Below are positions 1,014 through 20,450 of a stretch of DNA of 20,833 nt, one piece after another. The notes under the pieces are model-generated. The model was not told where the DNA came from. It searched no databases and worked only from the letters and a program-made list of their open reading frames with translations. The stretch is from Hysterium pulicare CBS 123377. Lineage: Eukaryota > Ascomycota > Dothideomycetes > Hysteriales > Hysteriaceae. Position 1 is the stretch's first letter. Each line of letters begins with the position of its first letter. The stretch lies in contig AJFK01000339.1 of the NCBI GenBank assembly GCA_000467715.1, positions 1 through 20,833 of the forward strand, given 5' to 3'. The position numbers were made by a program, and so were the translations under genes.

Positions 1014-1543
1014 TCAGAGAGCATGATATCTAGTTCGAGCTATGCAGTGTGAACAGGATCCCGTCGCTGGATTGGTTTGTGAGTTGGTTTAGCGGCAAAA
1101 GTGTATAAATAGAAGCACATGTGGCTTCAAAGCGCGACAGGCCTTGGCGCAGACTTCCCAAGCAAAATCGACCCGAAATAGATCCATGAGTCCGCAAATT
1201 ATCAACACTTTGACCTCACCTGGTTCCATTCCTCCGTACTGCAAAAATCCGAATCCCAGCCCGTAAGCTATACAAACACGAAACTCTCATAGCTTTCCCG
1301 TGGCGCGGAAGTCGACAAGTGACGCGCTGGACGTGGCACTTTGCGCAATCTCTCCTTCACCATTTTTCACTTCTTGTAACTACATGGATCCAAATTCAAG
1401 ACGAGTCTCAACTTAAGCTACTTCGACATCATACATAGCTCCATGTTACCCTCTGTTCTGGATATCTAGATCGCCCGCGATACGAGGATCGCCAATGGCT
1501 TGCTGACATTGGCAGAGGTCGACCCTAATTTACTCCTTCTGCC
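1014..1543 (+). promoter_or_regulatory. Upstream region and leader of the Abp2-like gene
   Basis: A TATAAATA box is present at 1104-1111. If it is used, the transcript would start near 1135-1160 and carry a leader of roughly 400 nt. The leader contains an upstream ORF at 1186-1266 (26 codons, Pro-rich, beginning MSPQIINTLTSPG). Its end overlaps a GTAAGC donor-like site at 1263, so a leader intron is possible. No strong alternative in-frame start for the main protein was found upstream of 1544. All assignments here are inference. Confidence 0.35.
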
Positions 1544-4533
1544 ATGATCATGCAGGTTGACTTCAGCACCCAAACAGGCCATGAGTCGGAGCATAACCTC
1601 CATCTTTCACCCCACTCTCATTACGATCACCAAGGAAACAATAGCAGCCCGGCTTTCTCTTTTCGACACCCTGCTGTGCCAGCAATTGATCCGGGCTTGA
1701 GCGACCATAGCTCGAGCGCCCGCAATGGACACGCGCATATATCCAGTGTTCATCAGTCTGCCTCTCCGCACCTCCTCCAAGCAGACAATGCTCCCCTCAA
1801 CAACGCGCACATGTCCCACGGCTTCTATGGTGATATGTCGCGTAGCTCCGCGACTCCTTCGACCCCCTCTAATACCGCCTCTCCACGCTTCACCTCTGCT
1901 ATATCTCCCAGCCAGTCGAAGCAGTTAACTCCTAGCTTTGTCCCCAGCGACCGCGCTCCTCCTTCTCGAGATGTTACCGACGATACGATTGACGATACCT
2001 ACGCTTCCTTTATCTTATACTGTAATCCTAGTTTTCCGATTTCGACGGATACATCCGAGCTCACAAAGGCTTTCCGAGCGCCGCCTAGGAGTGATGGAAA
2101 TGCTTTCAGCATATGGACACTCTTTGAGCTCATTGGGAAATATGATGCCAAAGAAATCAAGACGTGGACACAGTTGGCGCTGGATCTGGGCGTGGAACCA
2201 CCGGATATGGATAAGGGACAGAGTACGCAGAAGGTGCAGCAGTATTCGGTCCGATTAAAGGTGAGAATCAGCTCTTTTGCCAGACGCCATATCTCGGTCT
2301 TTTCCAGAATTGCCAATTTAAGACAATTCTACTGACCGTGGAGCTTTCTTGAGTGAAAGGGCTCTTAACTATCTCATCATTTCAGCAATGTGTAGTTCAA
2401 GCTTCTCTCTGAGTCTTCCTCGCAGCGGAAGCCTCCCTGGTTATCATGTGAAGCATCATGTATTAAGATCTTAGAATTCGTTTGACTTCTTTCAAGCGCC
2501 TCCTAGGATTGATTTTCGTATTCTGCGCTATTGCTTCTATTCCTCTATTTCGTTGGCGTGCAGGTCGACTTAGAATACCTTGGTCTGCAATTTCATAATT
2601 TTCCTTCGCTTCCTCATTCGTTTATTTATCCTTGGAATGATCAATTCATGGAGCGCTTCATACTAATTAGATGCAGCGGTGGATGCGCGCAATGCATGTC
2701 GATGCTTTTTTCGAATACTTACTGGGCAAACAACACGCGTACTACATGCAAATACCTCCGTTACATGCTCCTTTCCCGGAAAGTGGTCGTGATGGAGTGC
2801 CCTTGGAAGAAGACTTGGCTATCCGAGCGCTGGACCCCAAGTTTCGACCCAAGCGAGGGCGCCGGAAAGCCGACGATGGAGAGGAAGAGCTGGATCCTTT
2901 GGAACAAACACCACCTCGGAAAAGGCCTCAGCTAGATACTTCCATTCCATTTGGGAATGTGATACCACCTCAGTCAGCATATCCGACCAGTGCACATCCA
3001 GATGACATGGAGCGATTTCTTAGTGCTCATGATCCGTGGACGGCAGCCTCTGCAATAACACCCGCTTCTGCAATGACAACAGCTTCAGCGCCAAGTAGAT
3101 TGAATCCACACTCCAAAGGCCTGACTCCATTTACAGCGACACCAATGTCAGCGGGACAGCAGCTGCGCTGGCGTCTCAATACCCAGGACAACCCTACGAC
3201 TCCGCATCCGATGTCCGCTATAACGCCGCAGTCTGCTCATCCCGATTATTTCGACGAACCTCAATCAGCGACCACCCCTTCTGCTTCCAAGTCGCGGTCA
3301 CGGCGTCGTCATGGTCCAGCAGTCTCATCAGCTTGGCCGAGCAACAGCACCTCCTCAACCGGTAAACTGCGTGGTCGACCTCCCAGTAATCGTTCTGTTC
3401 GAGACGGCCCTTTCGTCACGTTTCCTGCGAACCCGAAAACCAAGGAAGGCCCTACAATTGAGATGAACCGAAATACAGGAACGCTAACGCCGATTGTTGA
3501 GCGCGCACAATCCGATCCTCCGATGGCCGAGCACCACTTCCGATTCCCGCCAACACCAGCTTCTGCTGTCTCAACAGTCAGCCTACAAGAACCACTACAA
3601 AGCTCGCAGGGAAGGCCGTCACGATTGAGCCTTCAAGTACCGCAGCATGTTGGCAATCCAGTTCGATTAGTCACGCCCACCGTCCTTGTAACCGGTGAAC
3701 AAGATGTGGTTCCCTCCGGTGGACTTGGTCCATCACCGATGAGCACAACCTCACAGCGCGCATCATCATCCCACTATTTCGAAGAGAGCATCGGCGATAC
3801 TCCACACCAACAAATCCCCCCAACACCCTTACAGTCCGCGCAAACGCAACCAGCGACTCAAATCCCAACTCCCGCATCAGCACCGGCAACTGCTTCAATA
3901 CCTTCGATCCCCCAGGAAACTCTCAACCGCGCACTCGCCGCCGAACTCATCCGCGCACCCATCTCCGGCCGCCGCAAACGCCTCCGAGGCACAGAAGCCA
4001 AGAACCTAGCCTCCGCCATCCTAACCCCTCTCTACTCGACCTCGAAATCTGGATCTGCGGGTAAAGCGATGACGGAGCAGATCCTCAGCATCGCAATATC
4101 CAGCTGTCTAGGCCTCGCCACGCAAGTCGGTCTCGGGGCCGGAGGACCAGCGGGTGGAGTCAAGAAAGTCGTTTGTCAACGCTACAGAGTGGGAGGTGAT
4201 GGATATGATTCCCCGGTCGATGAAGATGAAGAGGAACCTTCTTCTGCTGGACTCACGATACGGGAGACGTTTGACGTGGTGTTCAATGTGCAGTTTGGTC
4301 CCTTGGCGGGGGAATGGACCATCAATGCCATCTCTGTACTCGATGATAACGGCGGTGGACCCGGTGCTGCTAGAGTAGCTGGGAGTGCAGGGCAAGAAGA
4401 GAGTGCGGGACAGAATACTCAAGATACGGTTGTGTGCTGGCGGACTAAGTTCCTAGAAGCGCAGAGGAGGCTTTGGGAACGCGAAGAGGAGGTTCGAGGA
4501 TTGAGGGAGAAGGTTTTGGAGGCGGTGTTGTGA
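1544..4533 (+). CDS. abp2: ARS-binding protein 2 (Abp2) family protein
   Basis: Two-exon model: 1544-2260 and 2677-4533, giving about 857 aa. The donor at 2261 is GTGAGA. A perfect TACTAAT branch site at 2661-2667 sits 7 nt before the CAG at 2674-2676, which favours that acceptor over the AG at 2669-2670. The join restores VRLK-RWMRAMHVDAFFEY, which I recognise as the Abp2 domain core, spanning about residues 153-310 (YASFILYCNPSF to PKRGRRK). Abp2, named from fission yeast, binds autonomously replicating sequences and has been tied to replication and the cell-cycle stress response; the protein is expected to be nuclear. Around the domain are long Ser/Thr/Pro-rich disordered stretches, AT-hook-like basic patches near residues 297 and 471 (LRGRPPS), a basic conserved-looking block at about 668 (GRRKRLRGTEAKNLASAIL) and a charged C-terminal helix likely to form a coiled coil. 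The 416-nt intron is long for this window and could hide a further small exon. Confidence 0.85.
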
Positions 4534-6315: not shown

Positions 6316-6960
6316 TCAAGCTTCCCTTGCCTGTGGCTGCTGCACTACACCAGCGGGTCCTGCAGACGCCTCATCTTTCTCCCACGGCTTCTTCCGCTTA
6401 GGCTTCACCGCTTGAGTGCCCTGACCTTCTAGGACTGTATCTGGTATCTCTTTGATGCCTGGTATTGGTTGACCGGTGGTAATAAGCTCGACGATATGAG
6501 CAAACGAGGTGGGGTAGGGCGCGGGTGGCTCTGCAGCACCGACTGAGGGCGTTGGAAGTATCCCGCCTGAAGACTCAGGTGGATCGGGAATTGCAGATGA
6601 TGCGGGGTTTGGAAGACCGTTTGTGGAGGTGTTTGGGCTAGTAGAGGAGTGGCTGCTGCGGTAGGCTTTGTAGGAATCGAAGTCGACATTAACGTTGAAT
6701 TTTCTGAGACAAGTTAGTGGAAATTTGAGAGGTAGTTTACGAATTGGTAATATGAAAGATACTCAGATATAGTACCTCGAGTAATAAAAACATCTTGCAC
6801 GTAATGCTAGTTCGGATGCTTGTTCGGGCGTACTGTTTGTACCCAGAATCGCACTGAGGCCTGATTGAAACTCGACATCGTCGTCCCAAGGATAATTCTC
6901 TAGTGCTTCATAGATAGAATCAGGGCTTCTTGAAGGTTCCGAAGCTTGACTCAAGCTCAT
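6316..6960 (-). CDS. PEX39: PEX39-like peroxin (KPWE-motif protein)
   Basis: Minus-strand gene, exons 6960-6776 and 6703-6316, 190 aa. The 72-nt intron has donor GTACT, branch CTAAC and acceptor CTCAG; it splits an Arg codon and restores FYYSR-KFNVNVDFDSYKAY. The start is the ATG at 6960; an in-frame codon at 6966 is GTG. The N-terminal part (about residues 14-78) is acidic then helical (IYEALENYPWDDDVEFQSGL) and resembles the small helix-turn-helix of PEX14-like/KPWE proteins. A Ser/Pro-rich linker follows, then TSFAHIVELITTGQPIPGIK (127-146) and a basic RKKPWEK segment with KPWE at 167-170. Known: PEX39 (human C6orf226, yeast Yjr012c) is a cytosolic peroxin that binds the PTS2 receptor PEX7 through an (R/K)PWE motif shared with PEX13 and stabilises receptor-cargo binding. 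Inferred: this protein aids PTS2 import into peroxisomes. It has no membrane segment, as expected for a cytosolic factor. Confidence 0.82.
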
Positions 6961-7235: not shown

Positions 7236-9371
7236 ATGTCCGAGTTCATTGGGTCAGTCGCACCAGGCCATAATCATTGCGCACGAGCTACGGCTAACAT
7301 GAATACGCGTAGATCACGTATATCTCTCATCTCAAAGAGTGATATCCGGTAAGCATATGTCGTTGAGATTGTCATTGGAAGCTTCCACTTACCGCTGCCG
7401 TAGATATGTCGGCACTCTTCACGAGATCAATTCGGAAAACTCCACTGTCGCACTCGAGAATGTACATTCATACGGCACCGAAGGTCGGCGAAATGGCGAT
7501 GACGAGATCCCCGCATCAGACAGTATCTACGAATACATTGTGTTTCGTGGCAGCGATGTGAAGGATCTTAGAATTGAGGAACCAGCCAAGGAGACCAAGC
7601 CGGCACCGCCACCGATGCCCAATGACCCAGCTATCCTTGGGGTAAGATGCCCATTAGCACTCCTAGAGCATTATTTCTGTGATGAAGCATACCGGATGTA
7701 AATTTCAGTATACCACCGAGAGCGCAAAACCCGTGTGGAAATTTCCGTTGCCTTCCTTCTGAGACTCGAACTGCTATCTTCTCTATATCTAAGGACACGA
7801 AGAAGAAACATTAGCTAACAAAGTCTTGCATGCAGGCCCAGCGACCACCTCAAGCCCCGCAAGGCGCACCTCAGAACCAGCAACCACGTGCGCAGCAACC
7901 TCCAAACTTCCCGCAACAAGGACAGTTTCCTCCTGGTTACCCGCCATATGGCCCACCGTTCCAGAACCAACGATTCGGCCCTGGTTTTCCTCCAGGTGGT
8001 CCTGGCGGTCCTGGCGGCCCCGGCGGTCCTGGCGGCTTTGGCTATCCTGGCATGCCTCCATATGGAGCACCACCGGGATGGTATCCTCCGCCTGGCCAAG
8101 GATTCAATCAACCCCCCGGACCGTTCTCTCCTCCTATGCCAATTGGTCCGCCAGGTCAGCAGAACCAAAATCAACAACCACCTCAAGGCCCAAAAGGTGC
8201 AACCGCTGCTCCAATTGGTCCACCAGTGAATAAAGACGAGAAGCCCAACGCGCAGCCAAAGGTCGCTGAGGCAGATGGAACGACAAAGGCCGTGGAGCCA
8301 AAATCACTTGCCAAGCCTACAAGTCAGACGGCTACGCCAACTCCCGCCGCCGCTGCCAAACAAGCGCCGCCACCGCCGGTAGACTCGAAACCTGACGTTG
8401 CTGCCGCTCTTGCTCCCGCGCAAAGTTTAGCACCACCTGCTCAACACGCCGCTGTCCCAAAGACAGCACCAACCGGACCCAAGAGTGGACGGATAGTTCC
8501 TGCAGTACCTCTACCAAGCCCTGGTATTACAAAGGCTTCTATTCCCCAACCAGCAGCACAATCAACCTCTGCAGCGCCTGCTACCCAGTCTAGCCAAGCG
8601 ACAGTAAATCCTGTCTCTCAATATCAAAATGCCACCCAAAGAGCTACCGAAGCAGTTGCCGCCGCGATGGCGAAGCTGGGTGCTGGACCAGGCCCGAAAG
8701 TACCAAACCAGAGTAAGCCACAGGGCGATACGGCGATCGATAACTTGACGAAGAAAGTGAATGAGATGCGTGCGGACGATCAAATTCGCCACGGAAGACA
8801 GCCTGGCACGGGTGGCTTCGCCGCTGGTCATCGTGGAGGCCGTGGCGGGAGAGGCCGTGGAGGACAGCAAGCTCAAGCGCAAGCAGCCAAGATCGAGGTT
8901 CCCACCACTGACTTCGACTTTGAATCTTCAAACGCAAAGTTCAACAAGCAGGATCTAGTCAAAGAAGCCATCGCATCTGGCTCACCTATTGGCGGTGATA
9001 TTGCCTCTCCTCCAGCGACGGAGGCGACATTGAATGGACATGCCAACGGATCCACCGAAACATCTGCAGAGAAGGAGGTTGTGATCCCAGGTGCTACAGC
9101 CTATGACAAAGGTTCCAGCTTCTTCGACAACATTTCGAGCGAGCTCAGGGATAGAGAGGAGGCTGCCGCTCGTAGGGGACAGGAGTTTAGGTCAGAAGAG
9201 CGACGAAAGAATATGGAGACGTTTGGTCAGGGCAGCGTCGATGGATACAGAGGTGGCTTTAGGGGACGCGGACGCGGACGTGGCTTTGGCAGAGGCAGAG
9301 GAGGTGGCTTTAGGGGTCGTGGCGGGCAGCGCGGAAGAGGCGGTGCTCAGGCTGCGGTCGCTGAGTCTTAG
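7236..9371 (+). CDS. SCD6: Scd6/LSM14/Sum2-type mRNP protein
   Basis: Four exons: 7236-7252, 7313-7348, 7404-7641 and 7836-9371, giving 608 aa. Introns are 60, 55 and 194 nt, with branch-like CTAAC or CTTAC sites before each acceptor; the first two interrupt the LSm domain after MSEFIG and after SKSDIR. The LSm domain covers about residues 1-85 (SRISLISKSDIRYVGTL, EYIVFRGSDVKDLRI). A long Pro/Gln/Gly/Ala-rich region follows, an internal RGG cluster (nt about 8810-8870), the FDF box (TDFDFESSNAKFNKQD, about 455), the FFD box (YDKGSSFFDNIS, about 520), the TFG box (METFGQGS, about 557) and a C-terminal RGG/RGR tail. Known: Scd6/LSM14 family proteins bind mRNA and eIF4G or 4E partners, contact Dhh1/Edc3/Pat1 modules, repress translation and act in decapping and P-bodies. 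All family boxes are present and in order, so the gene looks functional. Its start is fixed by the split LSm domain. Confidence 0.93.
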
Positions 9372-12643: not shown

Positions 12644-13353
12644 GCTAGTGAAAGCCAGACTAAGTGGAAATATTGTGTCTACCAAGATGCACTAGATCAG
12701 CTAAACCCTTCGACAGCATTCGCATAGTCAACAGCTCCCGGTTCGGAGTATTTTCTTTTCCTTTCACTTGTATTAGCTCTGAAGGCATCGCAACATGTGC
12801 GATTGTGCAAACTAGGTGAAGTCTCCTACCTTAAACGTGTTTCGGGAATTACGACGTTCATGATATGGGCAATCAGGGTTATGAGCAGATGATAAGAGTC
12901 AGTGAGCCACAGGATATCACTAGCAGTAATCATGAGTCACCTTCACCCAGGTTTTCGGGGTATCAACGCTTTATTTATGTCAAGTATTCAAGTTCGTAAT
13001 GGAGTACGTGACTTCGGGTACCTAGCAAATATAGTACGTCCATGCAGACGCTGAGAGTGAATTAGATATATAGAATCACGGGCGCTTGATCTCAGCGGTG
13101 TGTTGTAAAGTCTGCGCTCAATCGATCAATGAATGAACCCGATGGCAATTCCTTCACACTTCGATAAAAACTGTACCCCTCACCTACGAATGGTCGTCAC
13201 ACAGCCGACATGTGAATGCCACCGTTCATATTAAATAACTCTAAGCTCTCTAAAATTTCTCTTCTTATTTTCTCAGCTTTTCAAACTTTCTACAAGTCAA
13301 CCATCGACTTACTCAGTTACAGCGCTTCGACTCCACTCACTCATTAACCTGAA
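12644..13353. other. Intergenic and promoter region of member b
   Basis: About 700 bases with no supported ORF. The last 120 bases before the ATG of member b are pyrimidine-rich (about 13240-13300, TTTCTCTTCTTATTTTCTC), typical of a fungal core promoter or leader. A GATAAAAAC stretch at about 13163-13171 could serve as a weak TATA-like element. Confidence 0.4.
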
Positions 13354-14952
13354 ATGGCATCGCATACTCGCAAAGGATTCGGTGCTCTACCACCAGAATT
13401 GAAAGATACGGTGTTCAGTCAATTGGATTCGATAGATGACATGAAGAATCTTTGCCTTACAAATAAGGCGTGCAGGAAGAGTGCCGCACCTTTACTATGG
13501 AGTATTCTAACATCGGGAATCTTCGGAAATACGCCGCAAAAATCGATGAAGGCCCTTTTCGATCCTGGCAATGGGATACTGCAACACGTCCGTTGTATTC
13601 ACATCAGCACTTCCATTATGAGCCCAGGCTGGGAGAAGAACCTTAGACTGGTACTTCTTGCCATTCCCGAGGACGGCCTGCGAGACTTTATCAGCGAATG
13701 TCCCATTGAACTCGAAACGCTGCTCGTCATGTTGCAGATGCATCGGAAGATGAAGTATCTCTGTGCGCGAATTCATTCAGAAACACCTCCTGACCTTCTG
13801 GTCCCATATGACCGAGCGGCAAATAGCTTCCACGAGTTAGAGAACCTCTCTTTGTACATCGACCCCAACGGGTATGTGGAGTTTTTTAGGCAGCTCCAAT
13901 GTGGGTCAAAAGATTTGCCAAATTTGAAAGGATTGAGCATTGGTCTTCAGACTCAGAACTTCATTTGTGTTTCGCAAGTTCTATTCAATCCTCGACTAGT
14001 TGAGAAATCGAGTCCCTCTCAATGCCTCATGCTGCGCCGACTGGCCCTCTCGGACCTTGAGTTCCCTTCATCGTTAAACTCCATGTTGAACGCTATCGAC
14101 TTTTCAGTCCTTGAAACCCTTGGTTTCTACCGTTGTAGACATGCTGAAGGTGTTCTATTAGCTCTAGCGGAGAGGTTCCACGGGCGGCAACCAGTCTTGA
14201 AACATTTCGAGTTTGAAGGTGATGGCTCAGCCTCAACCATTCAAGATCCCATCACTCGATTCCTTTGCTCTTTCTCAGGCCTAACCATTCTCTTGTTGAA
14301 GTTATTTGGCACTTGGCTGGTTGCAAAAGAGTGTTTCATCAAACATGGTCACTCATTGCGAGGCATCTTTATTCACACTCACGATCACACTGACATCCCT
14401 CAAGTCAACTACTCGACCGAAGAATTAGCAGCGATTCTTCGTGGGTGTCCGATGCTGGAGCAACTGGCGATGGATTTATGTTCTACGCTACTTGATCCGA
14501 GGGACTTGATGCCCGTCGTTCAGATCTATCCTACCCCTCCGGGCATGCACATCAAGACGGAGTTTGAGACGATGCTCGAAGAAATCGCTCGCGCTCCACG
14601 GCTTCGGGTTCTCCGTTTGACTGCATACCCTGGACTTTTTTTCCCTAGAGGACCCCCTTTCGAAGAAATCGCAATGGATAAATACCAAAGACACTACCAG
14701 TTCTTGATGCAAGAGTTTGCAACACAGATTTTGGGATTCCTTGCAGATCGCGGCTCTAATATAGACCGGTTCGCCAGCTTATCCGCTTGGGTCCTTGAAC
14801 ATTATTCTCCCGACTCAAATGGCCATATTTGGCCCAATTACGCCTATTTCAGAGGCCAAACCAAGGAGACTTACGGACCCCGTGGATCGGCTGTAGTGGC
14901 GATACCGACCGCTCAATTAGCATTGCTTGACTACTACAACCCCCTAATATGA
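13354..14952 (+). CDS. F-box/LRR-like protein, member b
   Basis: A single uninterrupted exon of 532 aa, starting at an ATG in good context (GAAATGGC). The N-terminal F-box spans about residues 12-50 (LPPELKDTVFSQLDSIDDMK, then LCLTNKACRKSAAPLLW). The rest is a Leu-rich, LRR-like solenoid sharing landmarks with its paralogues: HELENLSLYI, FLCSFSGL (about 306), a CFIKHGHSLR segment (about 328), YSTEELAAILRGCPMLEQLA and RGSNIDRF near the end. Known: F-box proteins use the F-box to bind Skp1 and recruit substrates to SCF ubiquitin ligases through C-terminal repeats. Substrate unknown. It lacks both introns found in a and d. Its final 20 residues (IPTAQLALLDYYNPLI) do not carry the DWKxxMPEAxIL-type ending of the other copies. 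It is the only single-exon member that is fully open. Confidence 0.85.
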   Translation: MASHTRKGFGALPPELKDTVFSQLDSIDDMKNLCLTNKACRKSAAPLLWSILTSGIFGNTPQKSMKALFDPGNGILQHVRCIHISTSIMSPGWEKNLRLVLLAIPEDGLRDFISECPIELETLLVMLQMHRKMKYLCARIHSETPPDLLVPYDRAANSFHELENLSLYIDPNGYVEFFRQLQCGSKDLPNLKGLSIGLQTQNFICVSQVLFNPRLVEKSSPSQCLMLRRLALSDLEFPSSLNSMLNAIDFSVLETLGFYRCRHAEGVLLALAERFHGRQPVLKHFEFEGDGSASTIQDPITRFLCSFSGLTILLLKLFGTWLVAKECFIKHGHSLRGIFIHTHDHTDIPQVNYSTEELAAILRGCPMLEQLAMDLCSTLLDPRDLMPVVQIYPTPPGMHIKTEFETMLEEIARAPRLRVLRLTAYPGLFFPRGPPFEEIAMDKYQRHYQFLMQEFATQILGFLADRGSNIDRFASLSAWVLEHYSPDSNGHIWPNYAYFRGQTKETYGPRGSAVVAIPTAQLALLDYYNPLI

Positions 14953-16071
14953 TCCTCGAGGTGGGCAAGGCTCTATGACGAGGAGCTAGTATGTCTAATC
15001 AGTCGATAATATTAACTTGTTATTTCTAGCCAGAGCCTACACAATTTGATCGTCCATTTGCAGGATAGTGGTTCAAAGCGAGTTGTAGTTTATGCTGCAG
15101 GGGGAACAGGATGATAACAATTGCCTTCTCGTTTCCCCTTCTCTATAGTAGAGTATGGCACATTGGAACGTGTTCCGTAAATGCAGCTCAATGACGCAGG
15201 CTTGAGGTTGGTAGATATAGGTAGATTTATGGTCACTGCCCTGGCTCAAATAACCTTACTCAGAACTGTGCATGGTTCACTTCGTTGACATAGGTGGATG
15301 TGCGCTAACCTCAAATGGAATGGAGCAAAGCCAGATATGGCTTGGTCACTAACTTTTACTCCGACGACGCGTCTGAACGTTCCTTCACCCACAATGCAAC
15401 ATCGTCGCAGTTGACTATTGCCAAATAACGACCATTTCGAACCCGGCATTTGCTTTTTGTTCCACACTTCAATCAATAATGGCTTCGCAGCTGTGCCCTC
15501 GATCGCCCTTTGTTCATTTCACAATGACTGGTCTCACGTTGCTGAAAGTTAAGTTCCGTGCAGAGCTATGAGCCAAGGGCACACAATGTTAATACTCTAC
15601 TAAAGAGTTGCGTATCATCCACAATGCGAAATGTCGCAGGAGTTCCTCCCGGCCGACCGGGTATTCCTATTCGAAAAATCGAATCTGTGGGATCTGGTCT
15701 TCGTAAGCGAATCGAAAAGAGTCCACTTGACGACGCCATTAGAGGAAGTTTGATTGTGCTCCAACTAACTCACGACAATACAAACATTTGTTTATTGGCC
15801 ATTGAGATCTCCCGCGCAAGAAGTTTCGTCTCTAGTTTTTTGGGGTAGTGCACAACGCCTAACCTTTTGAACCCTGATGGTGATCACCTTGCTCTTCCCA
15901 GATTTTTGGCTCGGTACTCGATATTGTGCGTACACAAAATATATTTCCATCTCGTCATACCAACCATAAACCGGACGATGTGGATAGCAAAGGATAGTTC
16001 CGATCAAAACGATTACAGCTTCCCTTCAAATTCCCCCTACGATACAACCCTTCAACGATCTCATCGACCAA
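14953..16071. other. Intergenic region between members b and c
   Basis: About 1.1 kb without a supported gene. ORFs at 15246-15476 (minus), 15558-15848 (plus) and 15792-16007 (minus) overlap, lack recognisable motifs and show no paralogue similarity by eye. The promoter of member c must lie in the right part; the bases before its ATG are C-rich (CCCTTCAAATTCCCCC, 16022-16037). Confidence 0.4.
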
Positions 16072-17662
16072 ATGGCCCGATTTCAAGATTTACCCACTGA
16101 GATGAAGGATGCGGTCTGTGAAGCCGTAGTTTCCAGGACTGGCCTGAAGAACCTTTGCTTGGTAAGTAAGGAACTTAAGGATAGTGCAGTGGAGAAGTTA
16201 TGGCACAGCATTACGATCGATGTTGAAGAGTCGGAGACAAAGTTACGTAGCACGCTCATTCGTGGTGGAGTTCTGAAACATGTTCGGTACCTTCATATCT
16301 CCCGCCCACGCCGGTGTAAGCGTAGGACTCTCGACTTCACACGCAGCGAAGAAGAGTCTATTCATCGTGAGCTTGAAAGCCTTCTCTACGCTCTTCCAAG
16401 AGACAGATTACTGAGATTCCGATGCGACTTTGAGCTTAATGTCGGTGTTCTCCGGACTTTATTTGAGACACAACAGGAACTCAAGATCCTCCTCTTATCC
16501 CAGCTTAAATTGCAACCTTCTCGTAACCTGCAGGTCAGTAAGGTCAACCAGGAATTCCTCACCTTATTGCAACTAGAAACTTTCCGTATATTTGGAATCT
16601 AGGGAGCTGAAATTCGACAATAGGATGGAGCTTATTCACAAAGCTATGCCAAATCTCAAAAATTTGAGCGTGTATTCAGCCATTATAGAATGGCATAATC
16701 CGGCACTATCGGTACAACGCCATCTCGAGCTCCGTCGCATAGCCTTATTTCGCGTCTCAGTGGATGTTGGTCGAGGCTTTCTGCGCCACGTTAACTTGGC
16801 GGTACTCCAAGAACTCACTCTTCATGCCTGCGTCGGTGTTGACGCTACTCTCAATGGGCTGGCAGACACATTCGCTCGCATGCCTCAATCGGCTTTGAAG
16901 AAATTCAATATTTCTCGCGTCCATCCGGCGGGATATGATGAGGAAGACATGGCGGCCGTCGGAAATTTTCTCCGCACAGTTTCTAGTCTAACTAATATTC
17001 AGATCGATTTTGGCAAAAACAGACTGGTGCCTAAAGAGTTCTTAGCTCCGCATTTTGGAACCTTACGCGTTCTGTCTATCAATAGCTGGTCGGACCATAA
17101 TTACGAATTCAGGGCACCCATATACTATTCAGCTAGTGACATAAGTGAAATAGTCACTGGCTCTCCAAATCTAGAGCAACTTGCTCTCAATTTCCCCGTC
17201 CTCTCGATCGGGTACGAAACCAGTATGGGATTTGGTTACATGTTTCGTCCGCAGATTTTCTCAAGAAACTCTCTTGTCCAAACCGAGGTTGAAACCATGT
17301 TAGGAGCAATAGCCAGAGCTTTAAAACTTTTGACGTTAAGGCTACTGACGCTTCCTACCATCGATGGTGGGTCCGATCGACCACGCGCTCTTTTTCGAGA
17401 TATAACATTTGATCGTCAAATCTTAGTAGTCGCAACGGAGATCATGCGATTTTTATTGCAGTACGGCTCCAACGTTAACGCTCTCGCGATTTCTCCGATT
17501 GCATTACGAAAGGCTCATTGGTATTTCAAGCAAGGCAACGTCGAAGCCTCAAATGGGCAAGAGGTGGTGCTTGCACGACCAGTCGCTGATTGGAAAGCCA
17601 AGTTGCCAGATGCGACTATCTTTCTAGATGAAAGGTTTCCGAAAATGCCCGCTCTGTGGTAA
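16072..17662 (+). pseudogene. F-box/LRR-like member c with an apparent +1 frame break
   Basis: The frame starts at ATG 16072 and encodes the F-box at once (FQDLPTEMKDAVCEAV, LKNLCLVSKELKDSA, EKLWHSI) and an LRR-like body to a TAG at 16600-16602. The next frame is open from about 16592 to the TAA at 17660-17662 with the rest of the protein: MELIHKAMPNLKNLSVYSAI, FLRTVSSLTNIQI, YSASDISEIV, LEQLALNFP, GSNVNALAIS, PVADWKAKLPDATIF. Aligned by eye to b and d, homology is continuous across the break (QLETFRIFG, then ELKFDNRME), which argues for a single-base indel. An intron from 16534 (GTCAGT) to 16606 would also restore the frame, but it would remove 24 codons that include this conserved stretch. 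The gene lacks both introns of a and d. It is either a recent pseudogene, a sequencing error or an unusually spliced gene; about 530 aa if intact. Confidence 0.7.
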
Positions 17663-18742
17663 AAACTTGATGGAGTGCAGACATTCCAAACCAATCCACC
17701 GTTTCTGGGCTTGTTCCAAGTCTAGGATTGAGACGGTGAAAAAGTTAGGCACGATTCGCGTGGATATCAAGTCTGAGCTAAACCTAAAGCTGACTTTCTA
17801 AATTGTTTCCTTGAAATTTACTATTCACGTTATCTACCCATTGCTATTTCTGCCTCCTTCTATTCCATGAAAGAGAATCATACTAACCGTACTTGAGGAC
17901 GTGCAATCAGGCAAGCAGAAAGGTCCAGTACTTGCTTTCTCTCGGATATTTCAACTATTTGAAGTAGTAGAAGGATTTGTAGTAAAGCTTGCATAATCGC
18001 TGATGCAATCGGGACGAGCTCGATGAAATAATAAACAAATAAATAAAACTACTTGAAGTATCGTCCCAATTAGGGCTTAGGGAGCAAGGCATCTATGGAG
18101 CAGCTTTTTGCTTGATCGTTTGCTGAAAGTTAGCGCTTTTTGTTTGACTACGATATATTACAAGTATGATGCTAGCTCGTCCATTCAATCTTTTACATCA
18201 TCCGATTTCCCACTATTATTCAATTTTCTCACTTTTTATTCATACCCTTTTATGTATATACCCCGAATTATCGAGTCCTGCATTTCAGATTGAATCTTTC
18301 TATGCTATACTAATGCAATAATTTCCAATATATGATCGCTGGTTGGGTCGCACATGCAGACCTTTCCAGCTGCCGTTAGCTGCAGCATAATCGCATTTCT
18401 GGCAGAATTGACTCGTTTTTTGGTTCTAAGCCTCTTTCCATTGTGAATTATCAAGGGCTCTCCTGTGCAATGGATGCGAGCTGCCGTATTCACAAGCCAA
18501 GATGGCTCAGCGTTTTTTGACCGAAATCATCAAGTTCCAGCATCACATCAGCGGCAAAGCATATTCAAGGTTTGGATGTGTCAATTCACACATTTCGACG
18601 CCGTTCGGGAAATCACACAGCTCCCCGCCCCTGATAAAGGCCATCAGGAACGACTCCAGGCTTGTCAATTGCTTTACCCTCTACTACTTGACTACACGAA
18701 AATCAAGAACAACTGTTGGAGAACACAGCCAAAGCCTTCTGA
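17663..18742. other. Intergenic region between members c and d
   Basis: About 1.08 kb with no supported gene. An A-rich cluster at 18031-18049 contains overlapping AATAAA-type words and is a candidate polyadenylation signal for member c, although it lies about 370 bases past the stop. ORFs at 18108-18293, 18305-18493, 18465-18818 and 18502-18801 have no motifs and overlap the promoter or first exon of member d in other frames. Confidence 0.4.
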
Positions 18743-20450
18743 ATGGCGTCAGGCACTACTGGACGACGATTTCTGGACCTTCCACCGGAAATGCTTACTA
18801 ATGTGCTGCAATTCGTAAGTCACTCTGCATTTACATTATAGTCTAGTAGATTTGACCAACTAGGAAACAGATACAACGCAAAGAAGACCTTAAGAACCTT
18901 TCGTTGGTAAACAAGACTCTCAAGGCCTATGCGGCACCTTTACTTTGGCATACGTTGAGCATTGAAATTCCAGAAACGGAGACACAGACAAAGTCAATCG
19001 ACACCCTTATTCGTCGGAAAGAAAAGATTCTCGGACTTGTTCGCCACCTCCATTTCCGCTGCCCAGAAGACCGCATGGGGGTAGCTGTGCCTTTTGTCAT
19101 CAGCAAGATTAGGCATCTCCTTTTGGCCATACCTAGGGACGGAATCTATCAATTCAGCAGTGAGGATGAACTCGAGATTGATATATTAGTGATCCTCCTG
19201 CAGAGACAAACAAAACTGAGGAGGCTTGAGCTCGACTGTTCGCTCTTCGGCTTAGCACTTGACATCTTCACCGAGTGCGACTGGAATATACCTATTTTGC
19301 CCGATCTAACTTGCTTGAGAGTAGAAGGTGGACAAGAAACCGATGAGACTTTCATCAAGGTGGTCCAGTCTGTTGTTCGGCGCTGTCCCAAACTTAAAGA
19401 CTTGGCGATGGTCTTTTGGCAAGTACCATTGAGCGACGACGTCATGAGTCGGTGTTTTGGCCGCTTGCCGCTCAATCTCCACCGTCTGCTTTTGTCTCAT
19501 AGCCCATTAGGTCTGCCGAGCTCGCTCTTCCAACAGATCAATTTCACGATGCTTGCGGAATTGTCTTTTCCCACATTCAGCGAGTCAGAACATGGGTTTC
19601 TGGACACGTTGGCAAGCACATTTGCTGCTAGCTCGCCAGCACTCAAGGTGTTCAATTTTCAACTCCACAGCCACGCTCCTGCACAACCACTTTTGGGCCC
19701 CCTTGAGCGTTTCCTGCGTGCGTTCTCTGGACTCGAGACGATTAACATCAATCTTGAGCAAAACAAGCTACTGCCTCCAGAATGCTTCATTCAGCACGGC
19801 AGAACTTTACGTACCCTGAGCACCCATAGCTGCTCTTGGCACACAATGGAGAGAGGGAAGTTGGTGTACTACTCTGCAACTGACTTAACTGCGATCGTCG
19901 CTGCTTGCCAAAAGCTCGAGCAACTTGCCATACCTTGTCCAGTTCGCCCAAGAGGGATGAAAGGCGAGGCATATCAGGCCCGCACTCTTCCAGAGAGAAG
20001 CCTGACACGAACCTGGGCGAGTCGACAGATTTCTCCGAACGTGCCTATGGTCTGGATTGAGTTTGAAGCTAATCTAGTAAGTATCATGCTCGAGTTTGTT
20101 GAGACGGAAATAACATACTAACTGGACCTTAGGAAGTAATAGCACGACTGCCAAACCTCCACACCCTCAGGATGCTCGTTGAATTGGGAACTTCTCACAA
20201 TGAACATCAAGGCAGAGCACTCGCAGCGCAAGTCTTGCGTTACTTAGCACTTCATGGCTCGAACATTAAGGTATTCTCAGTTTGGGAACGTTATCATTTC
20301 ATGAAGACGCGAACGGTGAATATCTTCGGTCAACATAAGATCTACCCAAATCGACTTCCCGATTGGAAATCGACTATGCCAGAGTCTTCAATACTGGCAT
20401 TTCCGAACTGCTTCTCTTGGTTGGGCGGAAATTTGGATAATAGGGTCTAG
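18743..20450 (+). CDS. F-box/LRR-like protein, member d
   Basis: Three exons: 18743-18814, 18871-20076 and 20133-20450, giving 531 aa. Both introns are 56 nt, phase 0 and start GTAAGT; the second has a perfect TACTAAC branch site. Intron 1 splits the F-box: FLDLPPEMLTNVLQF, then IQRKEDLKNLSLVNKTLKAY and APLLWHTL. The LRR-like body includes PDLTCLRVEGG, FLRAFSGLETINI, CFIQHGRTLRTL, YSATDLTAIVAACQKLEQLA, RLPNLHTLRM, GSNIKVFSVW and DWKSTMPESSIL. The length agrees with member b (532 aa) and all family landmarks are present, so it looks functional. Expected role: substrate-recognition subunit of an SCF E3 ligase in cytoplasm or nucleus; substrate unknown. The exon structure matches the broken member a exactly, indicating that the two-intron form is one ancestral form of the family. 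Confidence 0.88.

Follow-up and report, generated by a model that had tools for sequence, protein, structure and literature searches.

PEX39 orthologues have been described across eukaryotes (Chen et al. 2025, PMC12339391). According to that paper and PMC12173945, PEX39 acts as a clamp on PEX7 together with its PTS2 cargo and is partly displaced by the co-receptor. It hands PEX7 over to the KPWE motif of PEX13, and it can also pull empty PEX7 out of the PEX13 conduit. Yeast Pex39 (Yjr012c) is described there as having an APH and, after it, an (R/K)PWE motif, with PEX7 as its partner. In the model presented in PMC12339391, human L21 lies over the PTS2, and Y9 of yeast Pex39 and F236 of Pex21 are equivalent to it. 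The legend of Extended Data Fig. 1 of the same paper states that most fungal PEX39 proteins carry an extra region 'X', the function of which is unknown.

The window analysed here, a stretch of 20,833 nucleotides from Hysterium pulicare CBS 123377, contains a PEX39 candidate gene on the minus strand which is real and consists of two exons. Residues 124-171 of its 190-aa product (6376..6519, minus strand) match the Pfam profile PF17733 (KPWE_dom) over its full length (positions 1-48 of 48) with 83.1 bits (E 1.4e-23, cut-off 27). Pfam names this family 'PEX14-like KPWE domain', and we take it to be the DUF5572 of the PEX39 work. The only other Pfam family found up to E 1 was LRRC37 (E 0.078, under its cut-off). 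Up to the same value there was no match to Peroxin-13_N or to any NCBIfam profile, and a search of the PDB with the sequence of the whole protein gave no match up to E 10. None of the 33 stretches obtained with the KPWE module from a viral contig collection was a relative. In its own genome (37,200,777 bases, 596 contigs, 37.2 Mb) PF17733 had two matches, of which only the candidate exceeded the cut-off, the second reaching 16.4 bits; in this forward profile search it is thus the best match of the genome, ahead of PEX13 and PEX14.

The similarity extends well beyond four residues. The human PEX39 (C6orf226) sequence used for comparison, whose numbered residues fit those in PMC12339391, itself scores 52.7 bits against PF17733. 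Its residues 19-62 form an ungapped alignment with residues 127-170 of the candidate, in which 14 of the 44 positions are identical (E 9e-9), so that both proteins share the helix block and the KPWE motif at equal spacing. In this alignment, F129 stands opposite human L21, i.e. there is a large hydrophobic residue at the L21/Y9 place. The likely PTS2-covering helix block SFAHIVELITTGQPIPGIK (residues 128-146; 6451..6507, minus strand) was delimited by the same alignment to the human protein, and the block FAHIVELITTGQPIPGIK reported in the first-pass annotation is present at residues 129-146. The helical moment of the helix block is 0.42-0.45 at positions 126-129, which is below the values of 0.61 at position 11 and 0.59 at position 145 and counts as a point against the PEX39 reading. 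The KPWE motif (residues 167-170; 6379..6390, minus strand) lies at the C-terminus of the domain and is likely the binding site for the bottom face of PEX7, going by the role given in PMC12339391 and PMC12173945. The motif is intact as annotated earlier, but it is not strictly terminal, since 20 residues remain after it.

The candidate also differs from the described proteins. Human PEX39 comprises only 101 aa without room for an N-terminal region, and has L21 where the candidate has F129. Yeast Pex39, likened to the candidate via the published descriptions of its APH, (R/K)PWE motif and PEX7 partner, has RPWE (PMC12173945) and Tyr9 at the PTS2-covering position (PMC12339391), whereas the candidate has KPWE and F129. 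The sequence comparisons, i.e. the full-length KPWE_dom match, the similarity to human PEX39 and the lack of Peroxin-13_N and PEX14_N matches in the protein, together with the presence in this genome of PEX7 and of a PEX13 with KPWE, support the assignment as PEX39 and bear out the earlier proposal. We consider it very probable that the gene is a PEX39 orthologue acting with PEX7 as in yeast and human and carrying an added region X.

Exon 1 (6776..6960, minus strand, 185 nt) contains the ATG (6960-6958) and encodes most of the N-terminal region (residues 1-61, plus two bases of codon 62). It is followed by a GT-AG intron of 72 nt (6704..6775, minus strand; GTACTA...CACTAACTTGTCTCAG), which was placed from the DNA sequence and shows a branch-point-like CTAAC box near its CAG acceptor. 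Exon 2 (6316..6703, minus strand, 388 nt) encodes the rest of the N-terminal region, a linker and the PEX39 module, and ends with the TGA at 6318-6316. Joining the exons on the minus strand gives 190 codons plus TGA and thereby reproduces the spliced product predicted in the first-pass annotation. The assumption made there that neither exon alone gives a convincing long ORF does not apply to exon 2, which suffices to identify the gene because its frame is open over 148 codons and contains the entire KPWE module.

It might be that the family is correct but the gene model is not, with another start or intron and a mistranslated N-terminal region. As a donor, GTACTA departs from the usual fungal form, and the present model rests on sequence. 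In a scan for introns of 40-200 nt, 13 GT-AG pairs yielded more than 150 aa from the ATG at 6960. One of them, 6833/6762, likewise gives 190 aa, but it translates intron sequence as protein. The acceptor at 6704 is used by two of the 13 pairs, with donors 6775 and 6871, the latter losing 32 residues. The CTAAC box and the CAG acceptor of the 6704-6775 intron, its low GC content (33% vs 45% and 55% in the exons) and the stop closing the frame 5' of the ATG all argue against a wrong model, as which we consider the present one quite unlikely to turn out; the unspliced frame of exon 1 runs into a TGA within the intron. A chance occurrence of KPWE in an unrelated disordered protein would be conceivable inasmuch as words encoding this motif are common: the pattern AAACCNTGGGAR, which covers one lysine codon only and misses the candidate's own AAGCCGTGGGAG, matched 41 times in the genome compared to 42 times for the reversed pattern. 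The PF17733 match over 48 positions, far above the cut-off, and the alignment over 44 residues of the human protein refute this explanation, leaving it a negligible probability.

Alternatively, the gene could encode a PEX14 paralogue or a PEX14/33-like docking factor, the N-terminal helices of which bind receptor WxxxF/Y motifs and to which KPWE has been added. The Pfam name of the domain and the three short helices in a single-sequence model of exon 1 point in this direction, as do the PEX39-related sequences reported to be fused to PEX14 outside opisthokonts (Chen et al. 2025, PMC12339391). However, exon 1 matched no Pfam family up to E 10, a range in which the HMMER filters drop most matches above 0.1. 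The genome has two separate genes with Pex14_N matches over the cut-off (contigs C107 and C355, neither contig with a PF17733 match), and the alignments of residues 12-79 to both stretches scored below the mean of the shuffles, 1945 and 1827 of 2000 shuffled sequences reaching the score. The two PEX14_N stretches aligned to each other with z 14, a score reached by none of 2000 shuffles. BLASTP of the N-terminal region against the PEX14 of C107 gave no match either. A search of the literature for PEX14-like proteins with a helix-turn-helix returned none. Of the 'PEX14-like helical N-terminus' in the first-pass annotation, the helices are therefore found in the model, whereas Pfam, shuffles and BLASTP reveal no PEX14 similarity in sequence. 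We regard a PEX14 paralogue or PEX14/33-like docking factor as very improbable and retain the reading as PEX39.

For a fungal PEX39, an additional region is expected from the published descriptions (PMC12339391), in which region X is an extra part besides DUF5572, as in the candidate; this likeness is one of description. Residues 12-79 (6652..6927, minus strand, a span including the intron) would then correspond to the published region X. The added part is probably helical: in the single-sequence AlphaFold2 model of exon 1 (mean pLDDT 71.9) helices are predicted at residues 13-20, 28-39 and 45-63, residues 63-65 of the modelled chain being encoded by the intron. No informative match was obtained in a structural search with this model, and there was no PEX14 entry among the 24 matches listed. 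By sequence, exon 1 retrieved a single PDB row, RuvB (E 2.1), and residues 1-79 had no match in the own genome besides the gene itself. Searching the genome contig collection with exon 1 gave 150 pattern stretches and one tblastn match, in Nocardia (L029, 40% across 47 residues, with an E value of 8e-7 that refers to the candidates only). This match was rejected because its frame resembles a cytochrome P450.

The same genome encodes import partners of PEX39. A PEX7 orthologue was found on C78, where three of the seven matches to yeast Pex7 are located; the best one shows 59% identity and contains one internal TGA, which we read as an intron. This PEX7 retains the pocket glutamate (LFDTAWSE compared to LFDLAWNE in yeast). 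We take this residue to be human E77. Human E77 is needed for binding according to Chen et al. 2025 (PMC12339391). Counting against the PEX39 reading, there is a lysine at the place of yeast R117, which is said to contact the glutamate of the KPWE motif (PMC12173945).

The PEX13 locus on C438 matches the Peroxin-13_N profile, and upstream of it MASPSPPKPWE can be read, MASPSPPKPWERGGG beginning right after a stop; its status as first exon and the join were judged by eye. The hand-joined N-terminus contains Peroxin-13_N and, up to E 1, does not match KPWE_dom. This PEX13 thus has the KPWE motif in common with the candidate but differs from it by its Peroxin-13_N domain. The upstream KPWE is what one would predict if PEX39 and PEX13-KPWE occur together, as reported (Chen et al. 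2025, PMC12339391), and counts in favour of PEX39. A co-receptor of the PEX18/21 type was not detected in the genome with the yeast-type profile PF25098 up to E 1, which counts against this reading, though Pezizomycotina are reported to use PEX20 (PMC3237427).

Thiolase_N had seven matches at six genes. The two of these six whose N-termini were read by eye, on C323 and C556 (28.4-29.2 kb; L026 and L028), carry RLNSILSHM and RLSQVTDHM near their starts, both of the form RLx5HM, which counts in favour of the PEX39 reading, a form which the first two PTS2 patterns used exclude. Both signals end with HM rather than HL, HA or HF; being off the usual pattern in this way is a point against that reading. 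Across the seven thiolase loci, the PTS2 patterns had one N-terminal match, RLAAVQRQF in another gene of C556 (L022). It fits the pattern but was set aside, since it continues to RQFSTS like a mitochondrial presequence, which it likely is. The remaining pattern matches were either internal or far upstream, or fell in another frame.

Further genes are recognizable in the window. Divergently to the PEX39 gene, LSM14 (Scd6-like Sm) and FDF domains were matched in two frames at 7236-9371 (plus strand), likely one gene of the LSM14/Scd6 type. Its likely ATG at 7236 is only 276 bases away from the ATG of PEX39, so that both genes may share a promoter region. At 1529-4533 (plus strand) two long frames match the halves of Abp2 (ARS binding protein 2, PF09441) and are likely one intron-split gene. 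Four long frames (534, 204, 361 and 421 aa) at 13348-20121 (plus strand) look by eye like a tandem of F-box/LRR-like genes; against Pfam they gave a single LRR match below the cut-off, in the first frame.

From the work on yeast and human, we infer that the H. pulicare PEX39 would bind PEX7 and function in PTS2 import. Its KPWE motif would attach to the bottom face of the PEX7 propeller, and the SFAHIVELI helix would cover the PTS2 on the top face, F129 taking the position of human L21. PEX39 would steady PEX7 and its cargo until the co-receptor arrives, PEX7 would then pass to the KPWE motif of PEX13, and later on PEX39 would help to return PEX7, once empty, to the cytosol.

The view of the first-pass annotation that the family is still overlooked has to be revised, because a Pfam model exists and Chen et al. 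2025 (PMC12339391) discuss fungal orthologues with region X. The gene adds one fungal case to a family already described, fungi included. Being short, it could easily be left unannotated. Here a single filamentous-fungal genome combines PEX39, PEX7, a KPWE-bearing PEX13 and thiolases with PTS2-like signals, matching the handover model. The role of region X is the single question of specialist interest raised by this gene. It might act as a small docking domain made of helices and hold PEX20 or another import factor, in addition to the PEX7 bound by the protein. Such a domain could have arisen, through extensive change, from the PEX14 N-terminal domain of an ancestral PEX14-KPWE fusion. We consider this unlikely; if it were true, fungal PEX39 would assemble a PTS2 pre-import complex and not merely act as a clamp.
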